From: Candidatus Zixiibacteriota bacterium
Lineage (GTDB): Bacteria; Zixibacteria; MSB-5A5; GN15; JACZUZ01
DNA length: 64,000 nt
Direction: 5' to 3'
Assembly (NCBI GenBank): GCA_024280775.1
Contig: JAJRPM010000008.1
Span: forward strand, 62,001-126,000
Shown here: piece by piece, positions 3,395 through 10,961 of the stretch
Layout: every line of letters begins with the position of its first letter
Position numbering within the stretch: position 1 is the stretch's first letter
Notes under the pieces: model-generated
The model's input: only the letters and a program-made list of their open reading frames with translations
Database searches by the model: none
What the model was told of the DNA's origin: nothing
Position numbers and translations under genes: made by a program

Positions 3395-5194
3395 ATGAAT
3401 CTATCAAAAATACGTTTGACAGCCAAGTTTATGCTAGGAGTAGCTGCTATTCTGGCAGTGACTTTGACTGCAAACTTGATAATTACCAACAGCCATGTAA
3501 ATGAGCAGGCAAACGAAGCCTTTACCGATAAGCTCCGCCAGATTACTGGCATGGCATTGACTGTCCGTGATTGGTCCGCCGAGCATCAGAAGATCTATCG
3601 CAGTGATGAGCAATCCGAAGGCGGAAAGCGTGACATTGCTTCTGTTCCAGTTGTACAGGCATGGCAAATCACTCAGGACTACGCAAACTCGATGAACATT
3701 GAGTTCCGCACTCCTTCATTATCCCCGCGTAACCCTGATAACATGGCCGTGGGATTTGAGCGCGAGGCTCTCCTGGCTTTCCAGAGCGATCATTCATTGA
3801 AGGAGTTCGTAAAGCGCGAAGAAGAATCCAACGGTCAGGAATATGTTCACTTTGCCGTTCCTGTTTATCTGGGCAAAAGCTGCTTGGAATGTCACGGCTT
3901 TCCCAAAGGCGAGCTTGATCCGTTTGGCTTCGCAAAAGAGGGCATGAGTGAGGGAGATTTGCGCGCCGCATTTGTATTGAAAGCGAATGCTGCGACTCTT
4001 TTGGCGAACGAGGCGGCGAATACTCAGTTCATGATCTGGTCAACATTGATAATCATGACTTTAGTTTGTGGAGTTATCTACTGGTTCACTCGCAAGATGG
4101 TTGTCGGTCCGATTGGCAAGGTTGTGGGAGTTACAGACAAGATGACCGATGATTTTGACAAACTAGCGCTTGTGGTTGATGGTATAGCCAACAATGACCT
4201 AACGCGTAGCTTTGAGGAAACAGAGCTTGAAGCGCTTAATATCAATACCGAAGATGAAATCGGCGATATGGCAAGGTCCGTCGAGCGTATGATGAATTCA
4301 AAGCGCAAGATTGGCGCCTCAATGAATCAGATGACTTCATCGCTTAGAAACACAATTGGCAACGTGTCAAAGACATCCGAGTCGCTACTTTCGGCGGCCA
4401 CCGAAATTAGTTCCAGCGCTGAGCAAATGGCCAATGGCGCAAAACAACAGACAGATCAAACCACACAGGTCTCTACAGCAGTTGAAGAAATGACAGCTAC
4501 TGTAATAGAGACTTCAAAGAATGCAGAAGAGGCCTCGACTATTTCCAGGCAAGCCTCAGAAATGGCGTCAGTAGGCGCCGAAGTTGTGACAGAAACCATA
4601 GCCGGAATGCAACGTATTGCTAGTGTGGTTTCGAACTCCGCGGCCACAATTGGTGAATTGGCAAAGTCCGCAGATCATATCGGTGAGATTATCGGCGTAA
4701 TTGATGATATCGCGGACCAGACTAATCTGCTGGCGCTAAATGCCGCTATTGAAGCCGCAAGAGCCGGTGAGCAAGGACGTGGATTCGCCGTGGTTGCTGA
4801 TGAAGTTCGCAAACTTGCAGAGCGCACGACTAAAGCTACAGCTGAAATAACCGGTATGATTAAAGGTATCCAGCGCGACACCAGTGACGCAGTAAAGTCG
4901 ATGGAAGAAGGAACAATAGAGGTAAACACCGGTCGTGAGCTTGCTGATAAAGCCGGGGACTCACTCAATGAGATTCTCAATATGAGCCAACGTGTGAACA
5001 ATATGATTCAACAAATCGCCACCGCCGCCGAGGAGCAATCAGCAGCGGCAGAGGAGATCTCACGCAATGTAGATCAAATTGCCAATGTCACTCAAGAAAC
5101 CGCCAAGGGAGCCTCTGAGTCTGCTTTTGCCTCTGAGGACTTGAGTAAGCAAGCCGAAGGGTTAACACGAATCGTCAGTGAATTCAAAGTGTAA
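3395..5194 (+). CDS. Methyl-accepting chemotaxis protein with c-heme-type Tll0287-like sensor
   Basis: The 599-residue transmembrane chemoreceptor has, in order: a first membrane segment (about 11-31); an extracytoplasmic Tll0287-like (DUF3365) sensor carrying a CxxCH motif (C163, C166, H167), the usual covalent heme c site; a second membrane segment (about 211-230); a linker/HAMP region; and an MCP signalling domain (about 330-599). The conserved hairpin tip is [19 protein letters not shown]. The heme suggests redox, gas or light sensing through CheA/CheW. No chemotaxis kinase genes lie nearby. AAAGGAG precedes the ATG. Sensor and signalling halves closely match the next gene, but the linker (about 235-325) differs. 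A strong terminator follows. Confidence 0.92.
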
Positions 5195-5987: not shown

Positions 5988-7796
5988 ATGAGTTCATTCA
6001 AGATGCGTCTAACATCCAAGTTCATGCTTGGTGTGGTGGCCATATTAGCGGTGACCATGCTGGCAAACTTGATAATGACTAGCAAGAGAGTAAATGAACA
6101 CGCCAATGAGGCGTTCACCGACAAACTTCGTCAAATAACAGGCATGGCGTTAACTGTGCGCGACTGGGCGTCAGAACATCAAGATATTTATCGCTCCGCC
6201 AAGCAGTCCAAAGACGGCAAAAGAAGTATCATGGCTGTGCCGGTTGTGCAAGCTTGGCAGATAACCAAAGAATATGCTAATTCTATGAACATAGAATTCA
6301 GGACACCATCATTGGCGCCGCGAAATCCTGACAATGAAGCAGTAGGTTTTGAGAGAGAAGCATTGTTGGCCTTCCAGAAAGATCATGCATTGAAAGAATA
6401 CGTTGTGCGTAGCGAAGATTCCGATGGGCAAGAATATGTTCACTTTGCGGTGCCGGTGTATCTGGGCAAGGATTGTCTTGAGTGTCACGGCTTCCCCAAA
6501 GGCGAATTGGATCCCTATGGATATGCCAAAGAAGGGATGAGCGAAGGCGACCTTCGCGCGGCTTTTGTTCTCAAGGCCAATGCCGCGACGTTGGTGGCCA
6601 ATGAGGCCAGCAATACTCAGTTTATGCTATGGTCAACTTTGACTATCATGCTTCTAGTGTGCGCAGGCATCTTTTGGGCGATTCGAAAGATGGTCACTAG
6701 TCCTTTGGCTGAAGTTGGAGCCAAAATGGAAGCAATTGCTGTTGGTGATATTAGACAACAGATTGACTACAAATCCAATGATGAAATTGGTGATGTGGCA
6801 ATCTCTTTCGGAAAAATGACTGAGTACCTATCTGAGATGGCCGCGGCCGCTGATCAAATGGCTGATGGTGACCTAAACGTGGATGTGCAACCCAAATCTC
6901 AGGATGACGCGCTAGGGAACTCTTTCAGCAAAATGTCCCAATCGTTGCGTGAGATGATAGTGAATGTTACTAAGACATCAGAGTCATTGTTATCAGCCTC
7001 AACAGAAATCAGTTCCAATGCCGAACAAATGGCCAGCGGCGCCAAACAACAAACCGAACAAACTACTCAAGTTTCCACTGCAGTTGAAGAAATGACTGCA
7101 ACTGTGATTGAAACTTCCAAGAATGCCTCGGAGGCGTCAGTTGTAGCCACCCAGTCTTCTGAAATGGCCACCGCCGGAGCGGAAGTTGTCACGGAGACAA
7201 TAGCTGGAATGCAGCGCATAGCTGATGTTGTTACAAGCTCGGCTAACACTATTGGTGAGTTGGCCAAGTCAGCGGACGAAATAGGCGAAATCATCAGCGT
7301 AATCGATGATATCGCCGATCAGACAAATCTGTTGGCTCTAAATGCGGCTATTGAAGCAGCTCGCGCAGGCGAGCAAGGGCGTGGTTTTGCGGTTGTAGCT
7401 GATGAGGTCCGTAAATTGGCCGAGCGAACTACCAAGGCCACTGCTGAAATCACCGGTATGATAAAAGGCATTCAACGTGACACAGGTGATGCTGTAAAAT
7501 CAATGGAAGAAGGCGCTATTGAAGTCAATACCGGTCGTGAACTTGCAGATAAGGCAGGCGACTCTCTCAATGAGATTCTCTCTATGAGCCAAAGAGTCAA
7601 CAGCATGATCCAGCAGATAGCCACCGCCGCAGAACAACAATCCGCCGCCGCCGAGCAAATCTCAAGAAGCGTGGAGCAAATAGCAGGTGTAACCCAGGAC
7701 ACTGCCAAGGGAGCATCAGAATCTGCCTTTGCCTCGGAAGATCTCAACAAACAGGCCGAGGGTCTCTCGCGCATAGTTAGTGAGTTCAAAGTGTAA
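5988..7796 (+). CDS. Methyl-accepting chemotaxis protein, paralogue with tandem HAMP
   Basis: The 602-residue paralogue has the same plan as the preceding receptor: membrane segment, Tll0287-like sensor with C163xxC166H167, second membrane segment (about 211-230), then signalling helices with the same [19 protein letters not shown] tip. Between membrane and signalling domain it shows a regular HAMP ([20 protein letters not shown] followed by DEIGD) and a second HAMP-like segment ([10 protein letters not shown]). The other receptor has a longer, altered segment there. Both end in FKV with no NWETF-type CheR tether. It is probably a duplication with divergent linkers, sensing related redox or ligand cues. 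Confidence 0.92.
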
Positions 7797-7828
7797 CATA
7801 CATCAATATCTATTAACCTGTAATACAC

Positions 7829-7878
7829 GCGGTCTGCCTGTTGTTCCCAACGTGGAAAACAGGTGGACCGCTTTGTTG
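7829..7878 (+). terminator. Terminator after second chemoreceptor
   Basis: GCGGTCTGCCTGTT pairs with AACAGGTGGACCGC apart from two central mismatches, and the stem is followed by TTTGTTGT. It sits between convergent genes and fits the plus strand best. Confidence 0.75.
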
Positions 7879-7899
7879 TAACCAGCATCAAACAAGGAG

Positions 7900-8697
7900 T
7901 CAGAACTTCCCTCTGACTCGCTCTTTGTAAGGTAAAATCTCAAGGCAAGTTGTCCACCAGCCACTGGTGATTGACTCGATAAACTCCCCGGAGATGCGTT
8001 CGCTTTTCATTTCATCAGCTAATCGCTGATAGTCATATATCACAGGAACAGATTCAACTTGAACACCGCCGTTATCATCAACAGACAGTATTGTATACCA
8101 AACATTGGTCTGTCCGTCATTTGCCGGCCTGCCTATCACACCCACATTGGCGAAAAGCCTTCCCGATGGTAGCTCGCGCTTCCAGTGAATCCCGGTATGA
8201 GTAGCCAGCACAACATCTACTTTAGCTTGTTCGCAGAACATTTCCAGCAGATGTGTCGGAGAGCTTGATTCCCAAAGGAATTCGTTAGTCCGGCGTGGAG
8301 ACCCATGACACAAAAGAGTCTTAACTCCCGCAATTTCCAAACTGATACTATCCGGGAGACTCGCAAGGAAACGCTTGTTGTCCTCACTGGTGTTCTTCAA
8401 AGTGTAATCATAGCTGAGCCGGGCAAAGTGATTGTCCTGAGGATCGGTATAGCCGCATTGACAATCCGGAAGGTCTCTAGAAACCGAGTCGTCATAGTTC
8501 CCCTTCAGGCACTTTACTCCGAAGCGCCGAAGAAGCGGGAATACCTTATCAGGATTAGGCCCAAAAGCTCCCATATCCCCGAGACAATACAAGTCCTCAA
8601 CACCGCGACCTCTGGCATCCTCACAGACAGCCTCCAGGGCCAGATAGTTATTATAGACTCCGCCAAAACATGCAATTCTTTGTGTTGTTGTGTTCAT
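7900..8697 (-). CDS. Metallophosphoesterase-family protein with degenerate first motif
   Basis: The 265-residue protein has a calcineurin-like phosphoesterase fold. Recognisable motifs are LGDMGAFGPNP (motif II), GNYDDS (motif III), LLCHGSP (motif IV) and THTGIHW followed by NVGVIGRP (motif V). Motif I, normally D-x-H-x-N, reads CFGGVYNNYLALEAV, so the first metal-binding Asp and His are replaced by Gly and Tyr. Either metal occupancy is altered or this is a specialised subfamily. It starts 40 bases downstream of the radical SAM gene on the same strand, so the two are very likely one operon and may act on one substrate. No substrate can be named. Confidence 0.83.
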   Translation of the reverse strand: MNTTTQRIACFGGVYNNYLALEAVCEDARGRGVEDLYCLGDMGAFGPNPDKVFPLLRRFGVKCLKGNYDDSVSRDLPDCQCGYTDPQDNHFARLSYDYTLKNTSEDNKRFLASLPDSISLEIAGVKTLLCHGSPRRTNEFLWESSSPTHLLEMFCEQAKVDVVLATHTGIHWKRELPSGRLFANVGVIGRPANDGQTNVWYTILSVDDNGGVQVESVPVIYDYQRLADEMKSERISGEFIESITSGWWTTCLEILPYKERVRGKF

Positions 8698-8737
8698 GGT
8701 TTAGTGAGGTCTGAAAAACTCACTTCTGTTGTCGTCA

Positions 8738-9694
8738 CTAAAATGCTGAGCGCGATGTTTCAGAAGTTTCAGAAGCCGAAGTTGAGAAATTTGAGCAAAT
8801 GGCGCCGAATTGGTAGCAGGTATAACAGGCCTTGTGGCCCAGTTTGTACGATCCCAGCGAATCATCCACCGAATCACCCAAACGCGCATCAGGCGCATCA
8901 ATCAAGATAGGGCAGACATAGACACCTTTGTCGGTTACAATTCTAGAGTTGGAACACAACAATCGGCCGCTATCATAATCCTTGAGCATATCCTCAGTCA
9001 CCAAATACTCATCAGGGCTGCTAAACTCGGACTTACGATACTCACCTAAATTCAAAGCCGGGAGAATCTTTATCCTCGGTCGCTTATATCCTATTCCATT
9101 GAGCAAAGTCTTGAAGGCCTCAAGTGTCTTGTGGCTCTCGCTTTCGGGCCAGGTTTGCACGGCGGTGATTATCGGCATGAAACCCGCTTCCACCAATGCT
9201 GTGATGCCTTTGATAGCAGAGTCAAACGAGCCGGCGCCGCGAATGTTGTCGTTGGATTCGGCGTTGAATCCATCCAGTGACACTCGCAGCTCCAGCGAAT
9301 AAATAGTATTATCGGATATACGTTTGAGTTTCTCGGCCACACGATGACGAATCACTGTTCCATTGGTCAAAACCGAAACCGGCCCAACTCTTAGCGTATC
9401 TTCCAAAATATCATAAATTTCCTTGTTCAGGAAAGTCTCTCCACCGGTAAAATAAAACTCTTTCACGCCATGTTTTTTCGATTCGTTTACCTGCGCGCTG
9501 ACAGTCTCCCGGTTCAAAAACTTGAATGAATCGTTTTCTGGTGAACAGCTAATAAAACAATGCGAACAGGACAGATTGCAAATTGTCCCGGCTAATTGAA
9601 ACCAGAGTGTGTCCAATGAGTTCAATTCCACTGATCCTGGCATCGCCATACCGCCATTCTTCATGCTGTTTTCGTTGTTCATTAAGTTACTCAT
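8738..9694 (-). CDS. Radical SAM/SPASM-type enzyme
   Basis: The first cluster motif, CNLSCSHC (CxxxCxxC), sits near the N-terminus and is followed by FTGGETFLNKE, a GGE-type SAM-binding loop. A C-terminal cysteine set (CSNSRIVTDKGVYVCP, then ACYTCYQFGAICSN) indicates a SPASM or twitch auxiliary Fe-S domain. Such enzymes modify peptides or small molecules. The ATG at 9694 is preferred because AAAGG lies 9 bases upstream, giving 318 residues; a frame open to 9778 adds 28 residues unlike the family. The metallophosphoesterase lies immediately downstream. There is no obvious precursor peptide next to it. Confidence 0.88.
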   Translation of the reverse strand: MSNLMNNENSMKNGGMAMPGSVELNSLDTLWFQLAGTICNLSCSHCFISCSPENDSFKFLNRETVSAQVNESKKHGVKEFYFTGGETFLNKEIYDILEDTLRVGPVSVLTNGTVIRHRVAEKLKRISDNTIYSLELRVSLDGFNAESNDNIRGAGSFDSAIKGITALVEAGFMPIITAVQTWPESESHKTLEAFKTLLNGIGYKRPRIKILPALNLGEYRKSEFSSPDEYLVTEDMLKDYDSGRLLCSNSRIVTDKGVYVCPILIDAPDARLGDSVDDSLGSYKLGHKACYTCYQFGAICSNFSTSASETSETSRSAF

Positions 9695-9998
9695 CGCATC
9701 TTGCCTTTCTTCGGCCTGTAACTTTGAATACTGCGGTTTTGTTCCTGCATTTGCGTAACTGCAACTACTATGGCGCATACTTGCCCCGAGTTGCTCGTAC
9801 CGCAGCTAATATAGATAGCTTGATAGAATACAACAAGTGCGTGATAGCGCCACATTATCTGTATGTCTTTCTTAACAGTGTATCACTACGAGGTCGGAAA
9901 TATGTTCCGATTCGATATTCGTATAACTATTTGATGTTTGCGAACAGTTTACAGCTACATAAGTACGAGAAGCTAGCAATGATATGAGTCCTGCTACG

Positions 9999-10448: not shown

Positions 10449-10961
10449 ATGGCTGCCAAACGTAAGACCGCAAAGAAGAAAACCACGCGACGCAAGACAG
10501 CGGCGCGCAAACCTGCCGCGCGCAAAAAAACAGCAAGAAAGCCAGTCCGTAAGACTGTCAAGCGCGCAGCAAAAAAAGTAGCGAAGAAGAAGACTGCGCG
10601 TAAGAGCGCAACGGCTCCACGCGCTCGCAGAACCAAAGCGGGTGTGAAGGTCAAAGAGTGGACAGCTGCTGAGATTTCATCGCTGAAGAAAATGTACAAA
10701 GGCCTGACCAATGTACAGATTGCGCGGAAATTGAAACGCACCTCAGGTTCAATTCGCGCTAAAGCCGCGATTCTGGGTCTGAGAAAAGCCGCCACCAAAA
10801 AGGTCGCCAAGAAAAAAGCGACTGGTCGCAAAAAAGTAGCTGCTCGTAAGACAGTCCGTCGCAAGACTACTGCCAAGCGTACAGTGAAACGTCGCACTGC
10901 GCCGAAACGCAAAACCGCGAAGCGCAAGACAACTAAACGTAAAACTACACGTCGTCGCTAG
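10449..10961 (+). CDS. Histone H1-like basic protein with Myb/SANT-like core
   Basis: The 170-residue, extremely Lys/Arg-rich protein has an N-terminal tail (1-65) and C-terminal tail (113-170) of Ala/Lys/Arg/Thr repeats like eukaryotic H1 or bacterial AlgP/Hc1 tails. Between them is a compact core (about 66-112) with pattern W71, AEIS, L79, Y83, TN, IARKL, RT, SIRAKA and LGL. That pattern reads as a three-helix Myb/SANT-type DNA-binding unit. It presumably coats or bridges DNA as a nucleoid protein. A paralogue with the same core lies at 55903-56346, and both end in KRKTTRRR. GGAGGAG precedes the ATG and a strong terminator follows, so it is monocistronic. Composition is firm; the role is inferred. 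Confidence 0.85.
   Translation: MAAKRKTAKKKTTRRKTAARKPAARKKTARKPVRKTVKRAAKKVAKKKTARKSATAPRARRTKAGVKVKEWTAAEISSLKKMYKGLTNVQIARKLKRTSGSIRAKAAILGLRKAATKKVAKKKATGRKKVAARKTVRRKTTAKRTVKRRTAPKRKTAKRKTTKRKTTRRR

Follow-up and report, generated by a model that had tools for sequence, protein, structure and literature searches.

A first point of comparison for the gene pair described here is Car1, reportedly described in Shen et al. 2024 (Mol Microbiol 122:201). According to excerpts of PMC12124457, Car1 is an As(V) reductase of Rufibacter tibetensis that depends on Cys74 and Cys76 for this activity, and a similar metallophosphoesterase (MPE) of an ars operon shares both cysteines and about 40 % identity with it; excerpts of PMC10652896 mention two further, uncharacterised MPEs in ars operons of Mucilaginibacter. 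The second point of comparison are radical S-adenosylmethionine (SAM) enzymes, which form arsenic-carbon (As-C) bonds in arsenosugar and arsinothricin synthesis; one of them, ArsS, adenosylates arsenic (Cheng et al. 2021, cited in PMC12159101; both statements as given in excerpts of PMC12159101). Here we report on a stretch of 64,000 nucleotides, the window, which is part of one contig of the 3.17 Mb genome of a Candidatus Zixiibacteriota bacterium and in which a radical SAM gene is followed by a gene for an MPE. The MPE has lost one of the two metal sites of its fold as a conserved change and very probably belongs to a branch of Car1-related proteins that carry a cysteine pair (CxC). On the combined evidence the gene pair probably belongs to an arsenic pathway. 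The two genes and their key segments, as read from the open reading frame (ORF) list and alignments, are the following, M1 and M2 denoting the two metal sites of the MPE fold and group a the Car1-like MPEs introduced below.

7900-8697, minus strand: MPE-fold protein of 265 amino acids, placed as Car1-related, M1 site lost, CxC kept (ORF list, Pfam, alignment, trees, structure model)
8647-8664, minus strand: MPE motif I, residues 12-17, GGVYNN replacing D-x-H-x-N; the same change in 5 of 5 loci of the window type
8491-8502, minus strand: MPE motif III, GNYD; M2 ligand Asn retained, Tyr in place of the His of GNHD (alignment)
8455-8463, minus strand: MPE CxC (C79, C81), at the positions of group a C74/C76 (alignment)
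8191-8202, minus strand: MPE motif V, THTG replacing GHxH; first His kept, second lost (alignment)
8738-9694, minus strand: radical SAM enzyme, ATG at 9694 being the likelier start in an ORF open to 9778; related to NF049973 (Rv1681 family), below cut-off
9557-9580, minus strand: CxxxCxxC cluster motif of the radical SAM enzyme (C67, C71, C74; alignment)
8795-8956, minus strand: C-terminal five-Cys region of the radical SAM enzyme (C275, C289, C318, C321, C328), invariant in 11 sequences; auxiliary cluster probable

The radical SAM gene lies upstream of the MPE gene with a spacing of 40 nt, and the flanking genes on both sides face the other way in the ORF list of the window, in line with a preliminary description of this DNA that had called the MPE the only operon partner. 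The MPE scores 38.6 bits against Pfam Metallophos_2 (cut-off 27), and its AlphaFold2 model, with a predicted local distance difference test (pLDDT) value of 94.8, matches solved calcineurin-like enzymes, best 3qfm with Z 27.9. A profile score above the gathering score and the fold thus both place it in the calcineurin-like MPE fold. The solved relatives with Z 27-28 are SapH, an asymmetric diadenosine tetraphosphate (Ap4A) hydrolase (3qfm), and the archaeal structures 1nnw and 2gju; 3qfm differs from the MPE in that DxH and GHxH are kept and no CxC is found at the corresponding position. In this fold three ligands are exclusive to M1, namely both residues of DxH (Asp, His) and the second His of GHxH; the Asp of GD bridges the metals, and the Asn of GN, the His of motif IV and the first His of GHxH bind M2. 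Where D-x-H-x-N is expected, we read CFGGVYNNY, which bears out the GGVYNNY of the preliminary description. In all five window-type rows G, Y and G replace the three M1-only ligands, and the M2 ligands D41, N67, H131 and H167 are invariant in alignments of 62 and 57 rows, so that with this site assignment the protein has the M2 but not the M1 ligands of a two-metal MPE. Because all M1-only ligands are gone and all other ligands are kept, the M1 site appears to have been removed as a whole. The expectation that one metal site should be lost or changed was therefore well founded. The accompanying statement that motifs II-V are kept applies to the M2 ligands only, as GHxH has become THTG and GNHD has become GNYD in addition to the change of DxH. 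Judged by the alignments, the loss of M1 is a conserved change, not decay.

This conservation is visible at the level of the pair as well. Both genes are present in the same four of the 132 genomes of the phylum (radical SAM enzyme at an identity of at least 55 %), and a fifth locus was found in one Balneolales genome. In all five distinct loci, four from Zixibacteriota and one from Balneolales, the radical SAM gene precedes the MPE gene. Three of them have a spacing of 40, 18 and 16 nt, and in the other two the genes overlap by 62 and 70 nt when the longest reading frames are used. Identity to the window proteins is 55-76 % for the MPE and 49-78 % for the radical SAM enzyme. Each of the five MPEs reads GGVY[NS]N[YH] at the DxHxN position and none has a normal DxH, so the copy in the window is not simply degenerate, the changed motif is general among the MPEs beside this radical SAM enzyme, and the pairing is a real conserved unit across two phyla. 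Between the window and the genome of the same genus (G074), the proportion of nonsynonymous differences (pN) is 0.16 for the MPE and 0.13 for the radical SAM gene, with synonymous proportions (pS) of 0.75 and 0.80 that are near saturation; both genes look to be under purifying selection. In a further carrier genome (G062), a Rex-like gene and then a flavoprotein gene precede the pair, and a TPR-like gene follows it (Rex and TPR names assigned by eye). The Rex-like, flavoprotein and TPR-like genes were also seen in genome G017 (L142) in the order of G062 (L017), with the pair absent, which is likely an empty site. This same gene order with and without the pair suggests that both genes are gained or lost together.

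A contig scan of genomes gave 37 stretches and two loci, one of them on the same contig as L004, and 48 pattern matches in viral contigs yielded no confirmed relative. Among plasmids, 103 records matched the radical SAM protein, two of them covering more than 80 % of the query, and 76 records matched the MPE; the neighbourhoods of those two and of four of the latter, including one from Roseomonas, were examined. In the open PubMed Central (PMC) literature we found no account of a radical SAM/MPE pair, and none of the open PMC papers searched combines ‘arsenosugar’ with ‘metallophosphoesterase’.

The lineage of the MPE was traced by profile searches in 395 genomes of the phylum of the Balneolales genome and 244 of its class, and in plasmids. 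Three CxC-bearing groups emerged: group a retains both DxH and GHxH but reads GNYD, group b (8 loci) is characterised by FGG-x-YSN, GNVE and GHxG and is likewise devoid of M1, and group c is the window type; the remaining rows of the motif table lack the CxC and read GNHD. In 5 of 5 window-type and 8 of 8 group b loci the M1-only ligands are lost together while the M2 ligands are kept. Every row of the two M1-less groups contains the CxC. It is also seen in group a, as residues 74/76 in the three proteins checked; C79/C81 of the window MPE are in register with these positions, as expected for the Car1-type CxC. Group a, taken as the Car1 family on the basis of the published description and used here in place of the Car1 sequence itself, shares the fold with the window MPE and is 27-33 % identical to it. 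An ArsR-family, ACR3, ArsC, ArsM or DUF6428 relative was detected by phmmer in the examined stretch of 35 of the 44 group a loci, with ArsR-family matches in 28 and ACR3 in 16; nine loci (L036, L041, L042, L043, L078, L080, L081, L083 and L086) showed none of the ars-type genes sought. These counts omit duplicate loci of the same gene and include two loci of one genome (L070, L088) as well as three that supplied queries (L023, L055, L056), and 41 group a rows entered the trees. The window MPE differs from group a in that it lacks the M1-only ligands, carries a C-terminal extension and is partnered by a radical SAM enzyme instead of ACR3 or ArsR. Car1 presumably has two metals in a DxH/GHxH site and couples As(V) reduction to thioredoxin. 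The retained DxH and GHxH that we thus take to hold for Car1, and that are seen in group a, are not found in the window MPE.

In a 62-row tree built without six key motif columns, group c is supported with 99/100, group b with 100/100 and their union with 100/99. When the motif neighbourhoods and six long rows are left out, the split that joins b and c still receives 99/97 and is present in 200 of 200 bootstrap trees. Past a common column, the proteins extend by a further 34-51 residues in group b (8 of 8) and 31 in group c (5 of 5), as compared with 12-15 in 40 of 41 group a rows, 26 in the remaining one and 13-17 in the others (8 of 8). This shared C-terminal extension supports the union of b and c independently of the tree model, and together with the tree grouping it places the window MPE in a clade, defined here, of M1-less MPEs of arsenosugar loci. 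One ancestral loss of the M1 site in groups b and c is the simplest reading of the alignments. Group a is not one clade in the 62-row tree, as three rows without CxC nest inside, and groups b and c likely originated from within it. We also noticed a second MPE (GNHD, DxH kept, no CxC) after the CxC-bearing one in some ars operons (L054 6781-7518, L055 6756-7490, L026 and L028); those of L026, L054 and L055 nest in the Car1-like group of the 62-row tree, as if the CxC had been lost again.

The gene neighbourhoods of group b mostly contain arsenosugar genes. One Na+ symporter family adjoins all eight MPEs, and in five of the eight loci relatives of ArsS, TIGR04169, TIGR04282/TIGR04283 or ArsM lie within the 12 kb examined: ArsS in L057, L058 and L063, TIGR04282 and an ArsM relative in L059 and L060, with ArsS of L059 (genome G216) farther out than the 12 kb stretch. 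The M1-less CxC MPEs that are sisters of the window type thus accompany genes of the arsenosugar cassette of AsSugarArsM (NF038099), ArsS (TIGR04167), TIGR04169, TIGR04282 and TIGR04283 in these five loci. Two of the eight group b MPEs are fusion proteins, namely L057 (5516-6745), whose TIGR04169 part scores 195 bits (cut-off 120), and L063 (5127-6368), in which the MPE is fused to a TIGR04169 relative recognised by similarity. A CxC and an AhpD-like CxxC in one chain suggest a fit to a built-in dithiol relay. The locus of G216 comprises, in order, a TIGR04169-like gene, ArsS, a TIGR04282-like gene, two transport-like genes, the symporter, the MPE, TIGR04282, a purine nucleoside phosphorylase, AsSugarArsM, two ORFs, DUF547 and a TIGR04283-like gene, the ‘-like’ genes, symporter and MPE being assigned by phmmer or by eye. 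The Balneolales pair has the same symporter family upstream and is followed by a HAD gene, TIGR04282 (207 bits, cut-off 134) and TIGR04283 (227 bits, cut-off 182). On the Roseomonas plasmid p546-1 (L146), TIGR04282, DUF547, a second radical SAM gene and a radical SAM gene of the wider family of the window enzyme (137 bits, profile A2) are accompanied by PhnD/E/C-type transporter genes and then by an M1-less CxC MPE. The further radical SAM gene of this run (7547-8926) overlaps the window-family one; it scores about 100 bits for TrsS and 90 for tetraether synthase, both far below the cut-offs. Marinobacter adhaerens plasmid pHP-187 contains an unannotated, frame-broken radical SAM gene of the wider family (L147, ~9001-9850), and this stretch is followed by a symporter (396 bits) like those beside group b MPEs. 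DUF547 was repeatedly observed near glycosyltransferase genes and TIGR04282 (L117 4053-9146 on contig C1 of the window genome, L021, L137 and L146), a recurrence that spans the window genome, G044, the G216 arsenosugar locus and the Roseomonas plasmid. From this distribution, DUF547 may be an unrecognised part of the arsenosugar-type pathway.

The radical SAM enzyme itself scores 65.5 bits against Pfam Radical_SAM, over the cut-off. Its best NCBIfam match is NF049973, the Rv1681 (MoeX) family, at 105.2 bits against a cut-off of 380, so that it is related to this family from far below the membership score; no paper treating the function of Rv1681 (MoeX) was found by title in open PMC listings. 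Identity with ArsS was ruled out by score and domain content, as the ArsS model TIGR04167 gave 56.4 bits against a cut-off of 300 and no match to DUF3641 was found in the enzyme, which is nearer to the Rv1681-like family. Common to both are the radical SAM core and five similarly spaced C-terminal cysteines, the ArsS of L057 also having five (C-x13/14-C, C-x2-C-x6/7-C). SPASM domains are defined by seven C-terminal cysteines, and the preliminary description of a SPASM-type radical SAM enzyme is thus correct in its second part only, since five are conserved. Eight distant relatives were found in the phylum, six of which entered a profile comparison with the window enzyme that reached 100 % over 275 columns; two of the eight have TIGR04282 next door and one has ArsM about 10 kb away. 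The radical SAM model reached a pLDDT of 73.7, and Foldseek listed BlsE first among solved structures, with SkfB, anSME and SuiB among the top matches. We use these fold matches loosely because the model confidence is mediocre.

Further arsenic genes are encoded elsewhere in some of the carrier genomes. Arsenosugar-type ArsM (NF038099, cut-off 400) is found with 532.5 bits in the window genome (G000:C13) and 538 bits in G074, so that at the level of the organism one hallmark of the arsenosugar pathway is present and the other, ArsS, was not found. At E 1e-40, only 2 of 132 phylum genomes match the ArsM of the window genome, both of them pair carriers (Fisher 7e-4). A flavoprotein gene lies close behind ArsM, with an ion-channel gene in between in the window genome, and the flavoprotein directly before the pair in G062 is its relative; this flavoprotein occurs in three of four pair carriers and in one of 128 other phylum genomes (Fisher 4e-5, neither test allowing for kinship). 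ArsS was not matched at E 1e-25 in any of the five carrier genomes, G436 and G216 being positive. TIGR04282 exceeds its cut-off in the window genome, where it stands in a run with DUF547 and glycosyltransferase genes, and a like run in G044 has at its end a radical SAM gene from the wider family of the window enzyme. With AsSugarArsM and TIGR04282 in the window genome and the symporter, TIGR04282 and TIGR04283 next to the Balneolales pair, there is a resemblance to the arsenosugar cassette; the differences are that no ArsS was found in the five carriers, the other radical SAM enzyme that accompanies the MPE, and the scattered location of the genes in the window genome.

The preliminary description had proposed a small modification pathway, possibly of a phosphorylated metabolite or a peptide, that could not be matched to a named system. 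The pair does look like a small modification pathway, but the relatives of the MPE, its CxC motif and the gene neighbourhoods lead us to favour arsenic over either of those substrates, and the pair can now be compared with arsenosugar biosynthesis (ArsM/ArsS) and with Car1. From lineage and gene context, both of which were computed, we infer the following two reactions. ArsM, encoded elsewhere in the genome, would supply methylated arsenic. The MPE would act as a thiol reductase instead of a phosphatase, its single M2 metal holding a methylated As(V) compound such as dimethylarsinate by its oxygen, and we ourselves suggest that the replacement of Asp by Gly, His by Tyr and His by Gly on the vacated M1 side would give room for the methyl groups. 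C79 and C81 would then perform the two-electron reduction to trivalent arsenic, and a thioredoxin- or AhpD-like protein would re-reduce the resulting disulfide. ArsS needs trivalent dimethylarsenic. The radical SAM enzyme is envisaged to join a SAM-derived carbon radical, in the simplest case 5’-deoxyadenosyl as in ArsS, to the trivalent arsenic, so that the pair would keep methylated arsenic trivalent and make the As-C bond where ArsS usually acts. This last step has a precedent, as radical SAM enzymes form As-C bonds according to excerpts of PMC12159101. Whether the pair is part of an organoarsenic, arsenosugar-type route with a reductase and an As-C bond former as outlined is in our estimate an open balance, with equal weight on either side. 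The same even weighting applies to the MPE as a reductase of As(V), and the candidate role of the radical SAM enzyme as As-C bond former falls marginally short of it.

Several observations weigh against this proposal. The hhalign value of 96.8 % between the radical SAM enzyme and ArsS (224 columns) reflects general radical SAM likeness and is unusable as support, because the control with the distant phylum relatives scores as high (97.2 %), and five of the eight distant relatives have none of the sought arsenic genes nearby. The ArsM match is found in two of the four phylum carriers, which belong to one genus, kinship being ignored in both Fisher tests, and the carriers without it are G073 and G062, 68 % and 92 % complete, respectively. 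The absence of ArsS covers five carrier genomes, some of them incomplete. TIGR04282 was discarded as a marker, being unspecific (over cut-off in G044 and G060, both without a window-type pair), as was TIGR04283, which in the window genome scores 171 bits, just under its cut-off of 182. Candidate pathway genes are dispersed over contigs of the window genome, and the arsenic-pathway queries returned, beyond the pair, one weak HAD match alone within the 64 kb of the window. Three group b loci (L061, L062, L064) have the symporter alone of the genes sought, and the ‘arsenosugar’ family labels of NCBI may themselves be based on context. In the 62-row tree, b+c and several group a lineages leave one unresolved fork, and groups b and c sit on long branches for which the tree tool warns of false joins. 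If Car1 uses two metals, as we assume, the loss of one might equal a loss of activity. Finally, the phosphonate-type ATP-binding cassette (ABC) transporter beside the Roseomonas genes keeps a phosphorus substrate in play.

The alternative that survives best retains the arsenic pathway and takes the M1-less MPE as a hydrolase or lyase that uses one metal on an arsenosugar phosphate, or as a binding protein, with a CxC that has only a structural role or binds As(III). The protein preserves the calcineurin fold, and the purine nucleoside phosphorylase, CofC-like and glycosyltransferase genes of the G216 arsenosugar locus suggest phosphorylated sugar intermediates. Hydrolysis by the ordinary two-metal route is unlikely in an MPE without M1 and the His of GNHD, but some turnover could remain. 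Against this alternative, all three ars-linked groups have retained the CxC, which coincides with the essential cysteines of Car1, and two MPE copies are fused to a CxxC redox-type protein for which a hydrolase would have no need. We therefore consider this alternative rather unlikely. That the pair acts on a phosphorus compound, a phosphonate or phosphorylated metabolite, with incidental arsenic neighbours, is still less probable: the phosphoesterase fold, the Roseomonas PhnC/D/E-type transporter between a related radical SAM gene and an M1-less MPE, and the HAD phosphatase-like gene of the Balneolales locus would fit, but five of eight loci of the sister group contain ArsS, ArsM or other arsenosugar genes, the next MPE relatives are mostly near ars genes, the co-occurring methyltransferase meets the arsenosugar ArsM model, and a CxC is not evidently needed in phosphorus chemistry. 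We regard SPASM-like maturation or modification of a peptide or protein by the radical SAM enzyme, with the MPE as an accessory, as quite improbable. The peptide or protein modifiers SkfB, anSME and SuiB rank high in the Foldseek list, though behind BlsE, and sactipeptide maturases are among the NCBIfam matches, but all matches listed (25 of 68) miss their cut-offs by far, five of the seven SPASM cysteines are present, the partners in the Balneolales locus are small-molecule enzymes, and the lists of ORFs around the pair (at least 90-120 amino acids, which shorter ones would escape) showed no precursor gene. A dead pseudo-enzyme or degenerate copy, as the altered motifs I, III and V could indicate, is scarcely credible and was ruled out by changes common to 5 of 5 loci in two phyla, the retained M2 site and CxC, the preserved adjacency to the radical SAM gene and the apparent purifying selection on both genes.

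Farther from the pair, the window contains on its plus strand two tandem, highly similar methyl-accepting chemotaxis proteins, recognised by eye, at 3395-5194 and 5988-7796, both with a CxxCH (CLECH) in the N-terminal half that resembles a haem-binding sensor head. A Lys/Ala/Arg-rich histone H1-like protein, also recognised by eye, is encoded at 10449-10961 (plus strand). With counterparts close to the pair in G074 (L004 331-882) and G073 (L005 3038-3484), this histone-like flank appears to be conserved within the family.

Arsenosugars and arsenolipids are major arsenic compounds of seaweeds and other marine life, and the enzymes so far tied to arsenosugar synthesis are, in the excerpts of the literature available, those of methylation and ArsS radical SAM adenosylation only. 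More speculatively than the assignments above, and with doubt prevailing, we put forward that the pair represents a second, ArsS-independent route to C-As natural products, in which an Rv1681-like radical SAM enzyme works with a one-metal organoarsenical reductase derived from a Car1-like ancestor, and that the M1-less clade is an unrecognised standard part of ArsS arsenosugar loci. The whole metal site would then have been given up so that dimethylated arsenic acid fits instead of arsenate. If true, this would name a missing reduction step and add a second class of arsenic radical SAM enzyme. It would also present a hydrolase fold that was first converted to a reductase and later changed its substrate by discarding one metal site, and organoarsenic synthesis would be predicted in uncultured phyla without the usual marker arsS.

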